64,000 nucleotides of DNA from Lunatibacter salilacus (GTDB lineage Bacteria > Bacteroidota > Bacteroidia > Cytophagales > Cyclobacteriaceae): positions 186,001 through 250,000 of the forward strand of contig NZ_VOLC01000002.1 in the NCBI RefSeq assembly GCF_009797935.1, given 5' to 3'. The notes beneath the pieces were generated by a model that worked only from the letters and a program-made list of their open reading frames with translations, searched no databases and was not told the origin of the DNA. Numbering within the stretch: the first letter of the stretch is position 1; each line of letters opens with the position of its first letter. Positions 47,480-54,217 of the stretch are shown here, one piece after another. The position numbers and the translations under genes were made by a program.

Positions 47480-50400
47480 TTACCTGTTTTTAGGTATCGT
47501 AAAATGGAAAGTAGACCCTCCCCCTAATCTTGATGTCAACCAAATCCTTCCCCCTAAAAATTCAACACTCCTCTTTGCAATAGACAGCCCTATACCATTA
47601 CCGCTGAAATATTCCCGACCATGTAGCCGTTGGAAGATAACGAATATCTTCTCAAAGTATATTTCTTCAACACCAATCCCGTTGTCCTTTACGGCAAACT
47701 CCCACTCATTTTCTTTTTCTGTTGAAATTATTTCTACGTTAGGGGCGACATCTATTATTGAGTATTTGATCGCATTGTCCAGCAGACAATTAATTATTTG
47801 AGTAATTGGAGCTCTATATGTTTTTATCTGAGGCAACTCCTCTGATATAATCGATGCCGATTTTTCTTCAATAATTCTTCTTCTCAATTGCTTGAAATCT
47901 AGAAGTATTTCATTCAAATCTACCTCTTCTATTTCCTCCAATTGCTTGTTTGCCCGGGAGTAAAGCAGTAAATCGAGAATGATCTGTTTCATTCTTTTCG
48001 CCCCGTCTGACGCAAAGTGTATGTATTCATGCGCCTTTTCGTCCAGCTGATTTCCATATTTTCTTTTCAACTGATCCATAAAACTGGAAATCATTCTCAG
48101 CGGTTCCTGCAAGTCATGGGATGTAACAAAAGCAAATTGTTCAAGCTCTTCGTTGGACCGTTCAAGTTCTCTGGCATACTTCTTAAGCGATTCATTGAGT
48201 TGGAATAACTCATTTTCCATCTTTTTTTGTCGGGTCAAATCGGTCATGGCTCCAACCATTCTAACGGCCGTTCCAGTATCATTCCTAACTATGATGCCTC
48301 TGTCTATTACGGATAGTTCTTCCTGATTTTCATTGAATATTCTATATTCCATTTCCCACCGCTTTGATTGCGGGTCATTGAGGGAATTCTGAATACTCTC
48401 CTTTAGTTGATCCAAATCATCGGGATGAAATTTATCCTCCCAAAACTGATTTTCCTTCATTTTAACAACGGCATTGCTTCCAAAAAATCTGTTGATATTT
48501 TTTGATCGGAAAAATACGTCGTTTTCTATATCCCAATCCCAAATGGTGTCATTCGTTGCTTTGGTTACTAACTCAAACCTCTCGTTGGCTTTTAACAGTC
48601 GGATATCAGCCTTCTTTCTAAGGGTGATATCTTTAAAATAAATTGATAAACCGCTTTCTGAGGGATAAGCCGTAACTTCTACCCAAATATCTAATGTTAC
48701 ATAATACTCCTCAAAACTAACTGTTTCACCCTTTGAAAACGCAATGTGGTATTGCCTGTAAAAATCAGAATCAATCGCATCAGCATATTCCTCCCAAAGA
48801 TTTTTACCGACAATGTCCTCTCTTTTTCTGCCCAATATATGCTCCGCCTGTTTGTTCCAATAGGTGACTGTCCAATCTTTGTTAACCGCAAAAAATGCAT
48901 CCCCAATACTTTCCAGGATTTCATTCTTTTCTTTGAACGCTTTTGTTAACAGTTCGGATGCTTGTTTTCTCTCGTTTATATTATTGAAATAAACGGAAAC
49001 ACCTTTATTCGATGGATATGCGCTTACCTCATACCAACAATTAGTCTCAAGGAAAAAATATTCAAAAGATTGAGGTTTATTAGTGTTTACGACTTGTCTG
49101 TAAGCAGTCTCCATTTCTGTTCCTAAAATAGCCGGAAACTCCTCCCAAATATTCTTGCCGATTAGTCCTGACTCATCCCGATTCAGTAACCTTTCTGCCT
49201 CTTTGTTAAAATAGGTGAACCTCCAATCAGCATCTACAGCATAAAACGCATCGGATATACTTTCCAATATTTCCCTCACTTTAATTTCCAAGGATTTGGC
49301 AACATGGATATCCTGAAAGCTGCCGTAAATTTTTGTGCATTTTCCATTTACTTGTTCACTTTTCCCAATACATCGGACCCATTTCTCATTTCCTTTTTGA
49401 GTAGTTATAAGAAGTTCTAAATCAAATTCTTTTGCATTCGAAATTAATTCATCAATCGCAATTCTAATTGTTGGTTTACTCTCTTCTGCATAAAACTCAA
49501 AACCCGCACTCATTGACGGCTGAAAATTTTCATCTATACCCAAAATCTCCCTAGTCATGGGAGACCAATACACATTACTTTCCTCCTGAGAAGTCAAATT
49601 AAGTTCCCAACTACCAATCTTAGCCATGTTGGAAGCTTGGTCCAACAGTTCTTTGTTTCTACTTTCCTCGGTAATATCCAATATCAAAGAATGGAATAGA
49701 ATGGCACCATCGGGTAAAAAATTCGGTGATCCATAGCCAGCATGCATGCGTAACTCCTTATTGGGCATTATATACTGCCATTGCGCTGACCAGTTAGTTT
49801 TATCCTGAATTGATTTGGCAATACTCTTTTTTACATTTTCTATTTCACCCCCTAGCTGTATTTGATTCCAAACTAAGCCAATGTTATTCATCACTTGTTC
49901 GGCACTAAATCCCCATATTTGTTTGGCACCTGGGGTTACGTATTTAAATTCATCCCTACCATCCGGATAAATAAAATATTGGTAGGCTACTCCCGGTAGG
50001 TTGTTAGCAAAGGATTGCAGCCTTATTTCCTGATCTTTCCTGTCGCTAATATCTTGAAAACTTCCAAATATTTTCTTAGCGACGCCATTAACTCTTTCAA
50101 CAGTTCCTATCACTCGCACCCATTTTTCCTTAAGGGTTTGGGTAACAATAACTGCCTCAAAATCAAACCCTGAACCGATTTCAACACTGTCCTTGACTCT
50201 TTCTTTAACCATATGACGGAAATCCCCACGATAAAAGTCAATTGATTTCTCTAACGTAGGGATAAAACTGCTACTATCAGTTTCATGCAATTGATGAACC
50301 ATTTCGGACCAAAAAGCTTCTGACTTCTCCAAATCTACCTGCCAAGCTCCAATTTTCGCCATATTGCCTACCTGCACATTTAGCTCTCTTAGTTTTATTT

Positions 50401-52708
50401 CTTCGGTAATGTTTTTTGCGGAAGCATAGATCAAACCGTCGATTATGGAAGAATTACAACTCCAGCTTAGCCAAATAATATTTCCCTCTTTAGTGATATA
50501 GCGATTCTCATACTTAAATGATGTTACTTTCTCCCCATTGCGCCTTAATTCATCAAAGAAAACACCCCTGTCGGAAGGATGGACAAACTTGCTAGATGGT
50601 TGAAACAATATTTCTTCTTGGGTATATCCCAACAATTCACACCCGGCCTTGTTAATTTTTAAAAAACGGCCATCAAAATCCGTTAAGCACAGAATATCAG
50701 GAATAGCATTATACAGGTGTTTAAGATCATCTTCCAGTCGCTTCCGATTGATTTCAGAGCCAATAAACTTTTCAAGATGGAGTATTACTTTACTAAACTT
50801 TACTAAACTGGAAACGTCCCGTTTTGAGCCGATGACCAATACGCCAACAACTTCGTTTTTAAATGTCAGTGGAATACCAAGTATAGACTTCAATCCAAGT
50901 TGTCCAGCCTTATTTTTTCTGATAAAATGTCGCTTGATTTGAGCATCGTCCCATACAAGTTGTTGCCTATTTTGCCAGACCTTTCCCGGAATTCCTACGC
51001 CTATATCAAATGAATTTATGGAATCGTCAGAGGTTTCAAAGAGTTCATCATTAGGATGACGTGGAATAAGCTTTATTTGACTTAGTTCAACATTAGGACA
51101 CCAGAGTTCGATCAAGTCAAATTTACCAAAAGCGTAAAGATTTTCACACAGGCCTTTCGCTGCACGCAGTAATTCTTCCTCTTCACTGAAAATCAAGCTT
51201 ATTTGGGTTTGCAAATCCTTTTTTAGATCATTGATTTTCTGTTCTGTAACATCCCTTTGAATCGAAATTAAGTGTGTAATGCTGCCGTTCTGATCAGCAA
51301 CAGGGCTAACCGCAAAATTAACATAAAACTCCTCACCAGTTTTCGTGTAGTTTAAAACTGTTGTTTCCGCATTTTCCCAACGTCTAAGTTTTTCCCCTAA
51401 TATTTTTAAATCTTCTTTGTTTGATGCTGAACCTTGCAGAAACCTTGGGTTTTGGCCAAGTGCCTCTTCTGCGGTATAGCCGGTCATTTTGGTAAAAGCT
51501 TTATTTACATAGGATATAACCGGTCCGGGCTCATCTAAGGGACTTGCCTCGGTAATAACTATCGCATCCGTGGTGCTGTTAATTACCTTTTCCAGTAACT
51601 TTAATTTTTGCTCTTCCTCAATCTTATCCGTTATATCTCTTGAATTGGCTACGATTCCTTTGACAGCAGGATTGTCAAGCATATTAGTCAAGATGGTTTC
51701 TACCCATCTCCACTCCTTTTTGTTGTTTTGAAACCGAAAAGGTTCTATCAATACCTTTTTTTGAGTGCCAATTTTTTGTAAACTGGCTGCGGTTCTATCT
51801 ACATCATCCGGATGGATAAATTCAAAAGCGCTTCGGCCGATAAATTCCTCGGGAGCAATCCCCAAAACCTGAATGCTTGTAGGGCTTACATAAACGTAAT
51901 TACCATCACAGTCCAAAATTCCTATCAGATCAGAACCTTCCTGAACCAATGCTTTAAACCGCTGCTCACTTTGGCTGATTAATTCTTCTTGTTCGATCTT
52001 CTCCTTGGCATCTCTTGCTACACAAAACATCAATTTTGAGTCATTATCCCACCTTACTGACCATAAATTGTACGCGATATTCCCATCTTTCTTCAGGTAG
52101 CGGTTCACAAAAGATTTAAAACTTTGTCCTCCGAAAATTGCAGCGGCTATTTCCTTAGTTTTGGGTTTGTCTTCATCCAAAACCAAATCTAAATATGGCT
52201 TACCGACTAATTCCCCTGGTAGGTAACCCCAATGCGTTTCAGCTGCCGCACTGACAAACTCAAAATTGCCAGCTTCATTGATTGTGCAAAAAGTATCTAG
52301 AGAAGCATCCAACAACTGGTTTGCGTTAAATTTTTGCTTGATGATGGATGTAATATCTTTTGATTGACAAACTACCGTAAGAACTTGATTTGTGTCCTCA
52401 ACAATGGGAATAAAGGTGGTGTGACCGTATGCAATATCCCTTGTCTCCGGGTTATAAAAATGCTCTTCGGTCTCAAAATATTCTCCGTTAAGTGCCCGGT
52501 AGTAATAGGATTTCCATTTTTCGATTACATCTTCACCAAAACCTTCTACAAATACTGAATCATTGAGACCATTCTCCTTCCCGGTAATTTTTCTTATTAT
52601 ATTAAGATAAGAAGCGTTAGCGTACACTAGTTTGAATTCAGAATCAATAACCCATACCAAGTCTTTGGAGTTATCAATTAACAAATTGGTAAGTTGCTGT
52701 CGGTTCAT
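47480..52708 (-). CDS. Giant cytoplasmic multi-PAS/GAF sensor histidine kinase
   Basis: 1742 residues without membrane segments or signal peptide. Roughly eleven PAS domains and one GAF domain (about 500-650) precede a HisKA domain with the phospho-acceptor His in VTSHDLQEPLR near 1531, and a complete HATPase domain (KDNGIGVEE, YFSGNGIGLSIAKR). There is no receiver domain. PAS4 has GQNPRFLQG near 420, the LOV-type motif with Pro in place of the photoactive Cys. The two PAS copies at about 1160-1270 and 1280-1395 are clear duplicates (ISDAFYAVDADW versus IGDAFFAVNKDW). It is a cytoplasmic integrator of several cues. A response regulator is not encoded nearby. Confidence 0.92.
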   Translation of the reverse strand: MNRQQLTNLLIDNSKDLVWVIDSEFKLVYANASYLNIIRKITGKENGLNDSVFVEGFGEDVIEKWKSYYYRALNGEYFETEEHFYNPETRDIAYGHTTFIPIVEDTNQVLTVVCQSKDITSIIKQKFNANQLLDASLDTFCTINEAGNFEFVSAAAETHWGYLPGELVGKPYLDLVLDEDKPKTKEIAAAIFGGQSFKSFVNRYLKKDGNIAYNLWSVRWDNDSKLMFCVARDAKEKIEQEELISQSEQRFKALVQEGSDLIGILDCDGNYVYVSPTSIQVLGIAPEEFIGRSAFEFIHPDDVDRTAASLQKIGTQKKVLIEPFRFQNNKKEWRWVETILTNMLDNPAVKGIVANSRDITDKIEEEQKLKLLEKVINSTTDAIVITEASPLDEPGPVISYVNKAFTKMTGYTAEEALGQNPRFLQGSASNKEDLKILGEKLRRWENAETTVLNYTKTGEEFYVNFAVSPVADQNGSITHLISIQRDVTEQKINDLKKDLQTQISLIFSEEEELLRAAKGLCENLYAFGKFDLIELWCPNVELSQIKLIPRHPNDELFETSDDSINSFDIGVGIPGKVWQNRQQLVWDDAQIKRHFIRKNKAGQLGLKSILGIPLTFKNEVVGVLVIGSKRDVSSLVKFSKVILHLEKFIGSEINRKRLEDDLKHLYNAIPDILCLTDFDGRFLKINKAGCELLGYTQEEILFQPSSKFVHPSDRGVFFDELRRNGEKVTSFKYENRYITKEGNIIWLSWSCNSSIIDGLIYASAKNITEEIKLRELNVQVGNMAKIGAWQVDLEKSEAFWSEMVHQLHETDSSSFIPTLEKSIDFYRGDFRHMVKERVKDSVEIGSGFDFEAVIVTQTLKEKWVRVIGTVERVNGVAKKIFGSFQDISDRKDQEIRLQSFANNLPGVAYQYFIYPDGRDEFKYVTPGAKQIWGFSAEQVMNNIGLVWNQIQLGGEIENVKKSIAKSIQDKTNWSAQWQYIMPNKELRMHAGYGSPNFLPDGAILFHSLILDITEESRNKELLDQASNMAKIGSWELNLTSQEESNVYWSPMTREILGIDENFQPSMSAGFEFYAEESKPTIRIAIDELISNAKEFDLELLITTQKGNEKWVRCIGKSEQVNGKCTKIYGSFQDIHVAKSLEIKVREILESISDAFYAVDADWRFTYFNKEAERLLNRDESGLIGKNIWEEFPAILGTEMETAYRQVVNTNKPQSFEYFFLETNCWYEVSAYPSNKGVSVYFNNINERKQASELLTKAFKEKNEILESIGDAFFAVNKDWTVTYWNKQAEHILGRKREDIVGKNLWEEYADAIDSDFYRQYHIAFSKGETVSFEEYYVTLDIWVEVTAYPSESGLSIYFKDITLRKKADIRLLKANERFELVTKATNDTIWDWDIENDVFFRSKNINRFFGSNAVVKMKENQFWEDKFHPDDLDQLKESIQNSLNDPQSKRWEMEYRIFNENQEELSVIDRGIIVRNDTGTAVRMVGAMTDLTRQKKMENELFQLNESLKKYARELERSNEELEQFAFVTSHDLQEPLRMISSFMDQLKRKYGNQLDEKAHEYIHFASDGAKRMKQIILDLLLYSRANKQLEEIEEVDLNEILLDFKQLRRRIIEEKSASIISEELPQIKTYRAPITQIINCLLDNAIKYSIIDVAPNVEIISTEKENEWEFAVKDNGIGVEEIYFEKIFVIFQRLHGREYFSGNGIGLSIAKRSVEFLGGRIWLTSRLGGGSTFHFTIPKNR

Positions 52709-53079
52709 TTTAAAATTGGTATTCGTTTCTGTTAAAATATAAGACAGAAGTTAAGCTGGTAATAAAACAGTCATTAAATGGATACTTTATTATTTTCTTT
52801 AACCTGCATATTCACTTGATAAACCCAAGTAAGCGCATTATATAAACTAATTAAGACTATTCTGGGTTACCGTTGCACTATTTAGGATAGTAAGTCAATT
52901 ACAATAACGCAACGAAAGTTACACAATCGGTGGAAAAATCAAATCTATTGGCCGTATTATTTTTCTATTCAGGATATCCAGAAAGCTTTTGGATTATCAG
53001 ATCCCACTAGCGTACGCCTAAAAATTAAAGAATTGACCCCTGTAATGTAAATACAACTTAATTACCAAAGAGCCCAGCT
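52709..53079. other. Intergenic region with no recognised gene
   Basis: 371 AT-rich bases upstream of the multi-PAS kinase, probably holding its promoter. No coding frame, IS end or RNA gene was recognised. It runs into the stem-loop array. Confidence 0.4.
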
Positions 53080-53187
53080 CCTCGTGATTTGCAATCGCGA
53101 GGACAGATAAATGGAATTTGCAATTCCAGATTGTGAATAGGATTCCAAATCCTTTTTTATCTTTATTTCGACATTGAAAATGTCGAA
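53080..53187. repeat. Array of four perfect or near-perfect triloop hairpins
   Basis: Four short palindromes with 3-base loops follow each other at 9-13 base intervals: 53080-53102 (10-bp stem, one G-T pair, loop TGC), 53112-53128 (7-bp stem, loop TGC), 53139-53153 (6-bp stem, loop CCA), and 53167-53187 (9-bp stem, loop GAA). Stem sequences differ between hairpins, but the geometry repeats. No terminator T run follows most of them. I cannot assign it to a known element. Confidence 0.75.
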
Positions 53188-53208
53188 CAGCGGGGAAAAT
53201 AATTTAAT

Positions 53209-53486
53209 CTATAATTTTTCTAACAAAAAAACCAGGTGAGAATTATCATAGGGAACAGTTATGTTAAGTTTTTCTCCAAATGGTTGGTTTTACTTTTCCC
53301 TAAAACCAGTCCGGAACCAGGGTCGATCCAAGTTATTCCCCAATTGCCAGTTGGCACATCCACTACTACTTGGCTATTTTCCTTGCTATCAATAAGTTGA
53401 ATACCATAGATATCTTTTTTATTACTGAATACGTTGGCTGCCATTTCAACGGATAAATTGGAAATGCAGTCTGGATCGGGAGACAT
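53209..53486 (-). pseudogene. Frameshifted C-terminal remnant of a glycosidase-associated beta-domain
   Basis: The frame from 53486 reads MSPDPDCISNLSVEMAANVF, then VVVDVPTGNWGITWIDPGSG, and hits a stop at 53259. The neighbouring frame carries on as NITVPYDNSHLVFLLEKL to a stop at 53209-53211. Together these look like the C-terminal beta-sandwich (collagen-binding-like) domain of DUF4038/GH140-type glycosidases, with W-x-DP-x-T/S-G and a final V-x-P-x-D segment. An in-frame stop lies just upstream of the Met. The catalytic part is missing. I am confident it is decayed, less so about the parent family. Confidence 0.65.
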
Positions 53487-53565
53487 TTTTCAAAATTCAA
53501 GGCTTGAGATAAATTTTCCCGGGCGAAGCATGAATTTTCATAGTTATTAAATCTTTCTAAGTTGT

Positions 53566-54217
53566 TTATTCAAACCGCTTTACAAACTCCAAAAATTTAC
53601 GGGCTGTTTCATCCAGGTTTTCTATGGAGATCATGGTGTATGGCTATATCGTGATGATTTTGTACCACCAATGTCACTCCATATTTTTGCGCTTCTTTAG
53701 CGGCTAGAGTGATTCCTTCCACTACCATCGCATACTGTCTATCATAAGGAATTCCCGGCCGTTCATATCCTGTAAAAATGCGAATCATCTTCGTTCCCAA
53801 ATCGCTGGCAAGTTCAGCCAATTGCCCGATATAGGCCGCTTGGATTTCTGTATGGGGAATACCGGGTTTATCCATTCCTGCTGTAAAGTCGGAATATCCT
53901 GACAAACCCACCAGTGTCAAATCAAGCTCCTCCATTCTTTTTTTGAGTTGCTCACGTGCCACCTTATCATAGTCAAGGAGGGAGAGATGTGGTGCTTTTG
54001 CCATAAGCATCACTCCGTCGTAGCCCAGTTCCTTGGCTTTAAGCAAAAATTCATCTACGGAAAGTACAGCCTGTCCACGCCAAAGGCCTGAATAGCCAAT
54101 GGAATGCAAACATGTTTTTACTTTAAAATCGGCGGAGTTTCCGGTTGGGAGTTCTTGACTATAAGATGAAAATACGATAAGTGCCAAAATGAAGGCAGCA
54201 AATAAACTATTTTTCAT
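53566..54217 (-). pseudogene. Sugar isomerase/epimerase gene with internal deletion
   Basis: The first 190 or so residues form the N-terminal two-thirds of a secreted xylose-isomerase-like TIM barrel: signal peptide, KAKELGYDGVMLM, LGTKMIRIFTGYERPG and LVVQNHHDIAIHHD. The frame then ends within a few residues. The other frame, starting inside the same codons, gives ISIENLDETARKFLEF and VKRFE to a stop at 53566-53568, which is the expected C-terminus. About 80-100 residues in between (the last beta strands and metal ligands) are missing. A deletion therefore joined the two ends out of frame. The gene lies 10 bases after the Gfo/Idh gene and was its operon partner. Confidence 0.8.

Follow-up and report, generated by a model that had tools for sequence, protein, structure and literature searches.

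What are the four small hairpins that stand side by side at positions 53080 to 53187 of a 64,000-nucleotide stretch of Lunatibacter salilacus DNA (here called the window)? A palindrome scan and a reading of the letters place four triloop hairpins there, whose stems measure 10, 7, 6, and 9 bp in order and which are set apart by spacers of 9, 10, and 13 bases. The scan and the folds thus agree with the preliminary description, which had reported four adjacent hairpins with 6- to 10-bp stems, 3-base loops, and 9- to 13-base spacers; the TGC loop that it assigned to the first two is present in the sequence. The inverted-repeat arms lie at 53079-53089/53093-53103 for hairpin 1 (91% complementarity), 53112-53118/53122-53128 for hairpin 2, 53136-53144/53148-53156 for hairpin 3 (89%, with a perfect portion at 53139-53144/53148-53153), and 53167-53175/53179-53187 for hairpin 4. 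Folded as single-stranded DNA, the stretch 53060-53200 reaches -27.1 kcal/mol, compared with a mean of -13.5 in shuffled sequences (z = -4.78; 0 of 200 shuffles as good). As RNA, the same stretch gives z = -3.50 on the plus strand (1 of 200 shuffles as good) and z = -3.70 on the minus strand (0 of 200).

The four hairpins turn out to be one unit in two inverted copies, hairpins 1 and 2 forming the first (53077-53127, plus strand) and hairpins 4 and 3 the second (53139-53191, minus strand). The unit is about 51 nt long and reads 5'-GCT-hairpin a-(A)CAGATAAA-hairpin b; ATTTGCAAT usually tops both hairpins, and an ATT-loop-AAT top caps all four in the window element. The GCT/AGC unit ends fall just beyond the range first described, and the full element occupies 53077-53191. 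In the left unit, which is of type B, the GCT foot is followed by hairpin 1 as hairpin a (53080-53102, plus strand; stem CCTCGTGATT, loop TGC), the linker ACAGATAAA (53103-53111, plus strand), and hairpin 2 as hairpin b (53112-53128, plus strand; TGGAATT-TGC-AATTCCA). A central spacer (53129-53138) separates it from the right unit, an inverted copy of type A, in which hairpin 3 is hairpin b (53139-53153, minus strand; AGGATT-3-AATCCT), the linker at 53154-53166 (minus strand) corresponds, inverted, to the CAGATAAA linker and has the form AAAGATAAA, hairpin 4 is hairpin a (53167-53187, minus strand; TTCGACATT-3-AATGTCGAA), and the outer foot is AGC (53189-53191), that is, GCT on the minus strand. 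Hairpin 1 is supported by the fold and by stem-pair covariation in 73 units, hairpins 2, 3, and 4 by palindrome, fold, and covariation, and the right linker by sequence and folds. The linkers AGATAAA (left) and TTTATCT (right) are mutually complementary and pair with each other in the minimum-energy folds of both DNA and RNA.

The surroundings of the element are as follows. A 1,742-amino-acid (aa) open reading frame (ORF) at 47480-52708 (minus strand) was judged, by reading its sequence, to be a PAS-rich sensor histidine kinase. A 75-aa ORF with no Pfam match (53259-53486, minus strand) adjoins the element, and beyond it lies a 202-aa xylose-isomerase-like protein (53609-54217, minus strand) that matches only positions 3-128 of the 249 in the Pfam profile and is perhaps truncated. 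Directly upstream of the element, an open stretch on the plus strand (52967-53050) runs for 27 codons to a stop and may be the tail of a gene since lost; the upstream frame at 52941-53051 holds three stops within one frame.

The BLASTN search for other copies that had been suggested at the outset, run with 53020-53220, returned 16 hits within the same genome (G000; E < 1e-4), that of the window included, hence 15 further ones; some span the whole element and many only one half. Genomes of relatives also carry BLASTN matches, and none was found in plasmid and phage records. A covariance model of the unit (R1) detects 36 units in G000 at E ≤ 1.3e-4, and likewise 36 at E ≤ 0.001; the former is a lower bound, set by scoring 150 of 5,641 first-look candidates; unit numbers in other genomes, where up to 60 candidates each were scored under stricter filters, are lower bounds as well. 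Two R1 units lie in the window at E ≤ 0.1, the left one scoring 73.4 bits (E = 3.5e-18) and the right one 61.7 bits (E = 7.1e-15), both being among the 73 units from which R1 was built. Units in G000 occur in both orientations. At 14 of the 15 loci examined in this genome, the copies touch no ORF of ≥100 aa, and the remaining one overlaps an ORF of 101 aa.

To what extent the hairpins are maintained as hairpins can be read from an alignment of 73 distinct units made from sequence (A1); a further alignment (A3) was fitted to the covariance model. The units of A1 come from a search with a sequence profile built on a seed that demanded paired stems, which biases the set toward pairing, and 73 of 103 distinct profile hits were kept after filters on length, foot, and the form of hairpin a. 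The G and C of the foot are invariant and the tops nearly so, and the letters of the stems vary. Despite these changes between copies, 94.1% of 1,150 stem cells are paired. Two-sided changes are found at 10 of 16 pairs, in 176 cells compared with 58.8 in shuffles, and the covariation score is 0.380, compared with 0.139 for shuffled alignments and at most 0.128 for slid controls. The bias of the seed alone does not explain this in-step change of both stem partners. Absence of covariation and absence of further copies were among the outcomes that the preliminary description had named as speaking against its reading; neither is the case, as covariation is strong and the BLASTN search gave 15 further matches.

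Units occur singly and in pairs. Nine close pairs in G000 comprise five with the GC feet outside, two in tandem, and two with the feet inside; among 51 distinct pairs, a tally drawn solely from fetched loci, the corresponding numbers are 28 outside, 8 tandem, and 15 inside. Six of the 28 feet-outside pairs are partial; in all 22 that could be scored, comparison of the two hairpin-a arms shows 3 to 6 differences over 7 positions. By the boundaries of this tally, the spacer of the window pair measures 12, compared with 20 to 42 in the other 27 pairs; it is the shortest of the 28, and its center has therefore probably been shortened. Spacer letters are, by eye, common to pairs within one genome or in near genomes. 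Such recurring inverted pairs of unlike halves around a short spacer are a REPIN-like organization. In four loci (L170 [G053:C13:1-14000], L171, L172, and L173), units also form clusters on one strand only that span several kilobases.

Several of the Pfam Y1_Tnp hits in relatives, once retrieved together with the neighboring DNA, proved to adjoin units. The gene concerned in a congener, G001, passes the NCBIfam model REP_Tyr_transpos (NF047646) with 103.7 bits (cutoff, 80) and Pfam Y1_Tnp narrowly, with 26.2 bits (cutoff, 23). Residues N59-H60-x-H62 and Y137 are invariant in 13 proteins of the close clade. The predicted structure of a relative's protein (pLDDT, 93.9) has as its top structural match TnpAREP with a bound REP hairpin (4er8; E = 2.5e-8), followed by transposases of the ISDra2 and IS608 types. 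The curated model, together with the HUH and Y1 residues, identifies the flanked gene as a RAYT/TnpAREP gene.

The association is confined largely to one branch of these genes. Units lie on both sides of the gene at 13 of 14 close-clade loci and on one side at the other (L119); 17 more distant RAYT loci gave just two weak matches, at L135 (26.8 bits, ∼940 bp away) and L139 (20.5 bits, ∼175 bp). A 36-protein tree groups the 14 close RAYTs as a single clade apart from the 22 others (support, 100/99). A second set of 80 named loci, which partly overlaps the first (at least 6 of the 63 loci below are repeats), was tallied by the matches nearest each gene, taken from 253 rows with approximate gene ends; the rows left out are further matches in loci already represented. 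At ≥55% identity, units stand on both sides in 55 of 63 loci, on one side in 5 (2 of them cut by a contig end), and on neither in 3, some sides being weak matches of ∼20 bits. At lower identity, units occur at 1 of 2 loci (50 to 54%) and 1 of 15 (40 to 49%). Since the fraction falls with identity in these 80 loci, flanking by units tracks relatedness. The cognate gene occurs in, among other named hosts, Mongoliitalea, Belliella, Cecembia, Cyclobacterium, Algoriphagus, Fulvivirga, and Pedobacter. The simplest loci (e.g., L117, L118, and L122) consist of a unit, the gene, and an inverted unit. In a sub-branch of the clade (L115, L118, L098, and L119), hairpin a is long and holds an inserted inner part, which is GTTCCG-AGGGC-like in L115, L118, and L098 and TTAGCGC-like in L098 and L119.

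At the level of genomes, we surveyed 98, including that of L. salilacus, for a full-length relative of this RAYT at ≥60% identity; 13 have one and 85 do not, G045 and G093, with broken or partial close RAYTs, being scored as without. All 13 RAYT-bearing genomes contain units, compared with 24 of the 85 others (Fisher P = 7e-7, the genomes not being independent of one another). The gene is present once in 12 of the 13 and twice in G018, and pairs lacking the gene outnumber it. One genome, G032, has at least 29 units, several of them equal-scoring, and no close RAYT at E ≤ 1e-5. As these 24 genomes, G032 among them, hold units without a close full-length RAYT, units may persist or spread otherwise. 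In a locus of G032 (L171; G032:C6), some units are close to reading frames present there more than once, and they may ride in larger repeats.

Dispersed units and inverted pairs, compensatory changes in the stems, and the flanking of one RAYT clade together lead us to conclude, with high confidence, that the element consists of two twin-hairpin, REP-like units arranged as a palindrome, i.e., a REPIN-like nonautonomous mobile element of Bacteroidota. The RAYT of the flanked clade probably spreads it. Dispersed copies, covariation, and units beside RAYT genes thereby bear out one of the first guesses made about the hairpins, that of a REP/RAYT-like element.

Other readings of the same hairpins fare less well. 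The best of them, that of a structured RNA (a small RNA or an mRNA leader or tail element) whose hairpins act after transcription and whose link to the RAYT is secondary, is very improbable. It would agree with RNA folds that beat shuffles, with stems that covary as those of an RNA would, and with seven promoter-like matches in 52700-53500, compared with 3.0 (standard deviation, 1.9) in shuffles. Rfam, however, gives 0 matches in the window, and the units lie on both strands, occur singly, inverted, or in tandem, and flank one transposase clade. Thus, of the structured RNA envisaged in the preliminary description, the favorable folding stands, but it is opposed by the lack of an Rfam match and by the copies in both orientations.

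Slightly less probable still are repeated transcription terminators or mRNA stabilizers, roles that have been hypothesized for REPs (in the part of PMC3733652 drawn on here). The extragenic placement would suit them, as would hairpin 3, which is followed by TTTTTT on the plus strand. That T run is on the wrong strand for the neighbors, since the gene-like ORFs at 47480-52708 and 53259-53486 are both on the minus strand, and termination has no need of a fixed linker, foot, and tops or of a flanking RAYT. A terminator scan of 52700-53500 found 0, but it needs at least 3 G-C pairs per stem, and hairpin 3 could not be scored because its stem has only 2. The early judgment that this is not a terminator cluster is therefore upheld as far as the scan reaches, with hairpin 3 outside what it scores. 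Finally, an array of sites for an integron-like or another site-specific recombinase, a guess that gained no support, is scarcely credible: units do form same-strand clusters across several kilobases (e.g., G053:C13), but the ORFs between the units of L170 resemble, by eye, ordinary chromosomal genes, and the RAYT link accounts for the units without a recombinase.

For the REPIN-like element, the state of the population in L. salilacus differs from that in its congener. No full-length RAYT of the close clade was found in the 68 contigs of G000. Its units have a median score of 53.25 (n = 36), compared with 66.8 (n = 40) in G001, which has the gene (P = 2e-4); two of the G001 units were counted but unlisted and were assigned assumed scores of 35 and 34, and the G001 assembly is 88% complete. 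The lower scores may be due partly to bias of the model or to drift. Given the gene that was not found and the lower scores, loss of the RAYT followed by decay is the simplest reading, and we infer that G000 probably lost this RAYT and that its units look like an ageing, immobile population. For this genome, the early suggestion that the hairpins are the relic of an element is thus apt. The flanks of the element are matched as one locus in neither G001 nor G002, and no empty site was found elsewhere; G039 and G043 share one pair, and G053 and G045 match one flank each. The best RAYT matches in G000 are broken copies, at G000:C19:846-1450 (L102) and G000:C1:235432-236001 (L101), and read as a second RAYT clade of the MGEAYQIRDQE type. 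Near the relatives of this second clade (L093, L139/L099, and L107) lie hairpins of other kinds, for example, ones built on a GGAATTTGTAATTCC core at L093 and L139.

How might such an element move? In the mechanism that we propose, each half would fold into its two hairpins when the DNA strand is single at the replication fork, and a RAYT dimer would hold on to the foot (GCT) and to the ATTTGCAAT tops that the hairpins share. Cleavage beside the foot would be carried out by the HUH histidines and the tyrosine of the RAYT, with the chemistry of IS608 and TnpAREP, after which the enzyme would copy or move the pair into another extragenic site. As part of PMC8266576 describes, Escherichia coli TnpAREP acts on single-stranded REP, making its cut at a CT dinucleotide next to the hairpin, and requires the GTAG foot, and the RAYTs studied at the bench read a GTAG guide; in the present element, the role of the GTAG foot would fall to the double apex together with the GCT foot.

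We consider it possible, if somewhat short of probable, that the repeat is truly bipartite: the RAYT would read the same top twice per half and four times per element, the stems would drift while staying paired, the apex and the GCT foot would replace the GTAG guide, and some related RAYT lineages would have a duplicated apex of their own. At other RAYT loci, six twin hairpins with a duplicated apex were found in 4 of 24, compared with 0 in each of 25 shuffles; the adjacent hairpins of these four loci (L135, L129, L104, and L109) share apexes of other types (AAGCG, AAGCT, and AGTC). As scanned, a duplicated apex is not a general trait of RAYTs: of the 18 named loci that lack R1 units, just 1 showed a twin. 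The strict scan itself misses most R1-positive loci (twins in 6 of 14 and 22 of 62).

Compared with the REPINs or BIMEs of RAYTs in, e.g., E. coli and Pseudomonas, the elements share short extragenic inverted pairs with a spacer, unlike halves, tens of copies, and a position beside RAYT genes (family features after the parts of PMC6006769 and PMC8266576 used for comparison). Flanking of a RAYT, inverted pairs, and dispersal, which mark a REPIN in the broad sense, are all found. The single hairpin and 5' GT[AG]G foot of a canonical REP are not: here, every half carries two hairpins that share a top, a CAGATAA-like linker, and a 5' GCT foot. GT[AG]G is absent from the first 8 nt of all 73 units and occurs at any position in 9 of them, and neither strand of 53061-53210 in the window contains it. 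IS200/IS605 elements (IS608 and ISDra2) are similar in the HUH/Y1 transposase fold, the subterminal hairpins, and the unit-gene-inverted unit layout of the simple loci; unlike theirs, the ends here are inverted copies with two hairpins each, and gene-less pairs prevail.

The closest precedent is in the survey of Quentin (2018), whose main text in part reports "atypical secondary structures" beside Bacteroidetes RAYTs of TnpAREP subclass 2.6, equivalent to RAYT group 5; these lack GT[AG]G, lie on the flanks of the gene, and have further copies in the genome, and the subclass is not conserved in the GTAG-reading region (PMC6006769). Bacteroidetes hosts, missing GT[AG]G, and atypical gene-flanking structures with copies elsewhere are likewise properties of the present elements. 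The motifs printed there for subclass 2.6 are NH[LIV]H, WQ, and YIH[QN]NP (PMC6006769), and the present clade departs from the W motif (WQ in 1 of 13 proteins) and, in most of its members, from the HuH and Y motifs (NH[LIV]H in 5 of 14, with NHCH in 9; YIH[QN]NP in 5 of 14). As the motifs are just partly present, we do not claim membership of that subclass. Twin hairpins are not described in the main-text parts of PMC6006769 available to us, and its supplementary Table S1 may already print such units.

For Bacteroidetes RAYTs, whose partner repeats that survey calls just "atypical" as far as its main-text parts go, these findings supply an anatomy that can be tested. A clade with other residues in the GTAG-reading region and with GTAG-less, apex-duplicated repeats makes guide recognition and its coevolution directly testable, and the covariance model makes such elements annotatable. 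Within one genus, L. salilacus and its congener offer a natural case of a REPIN-like population without and with its gene.
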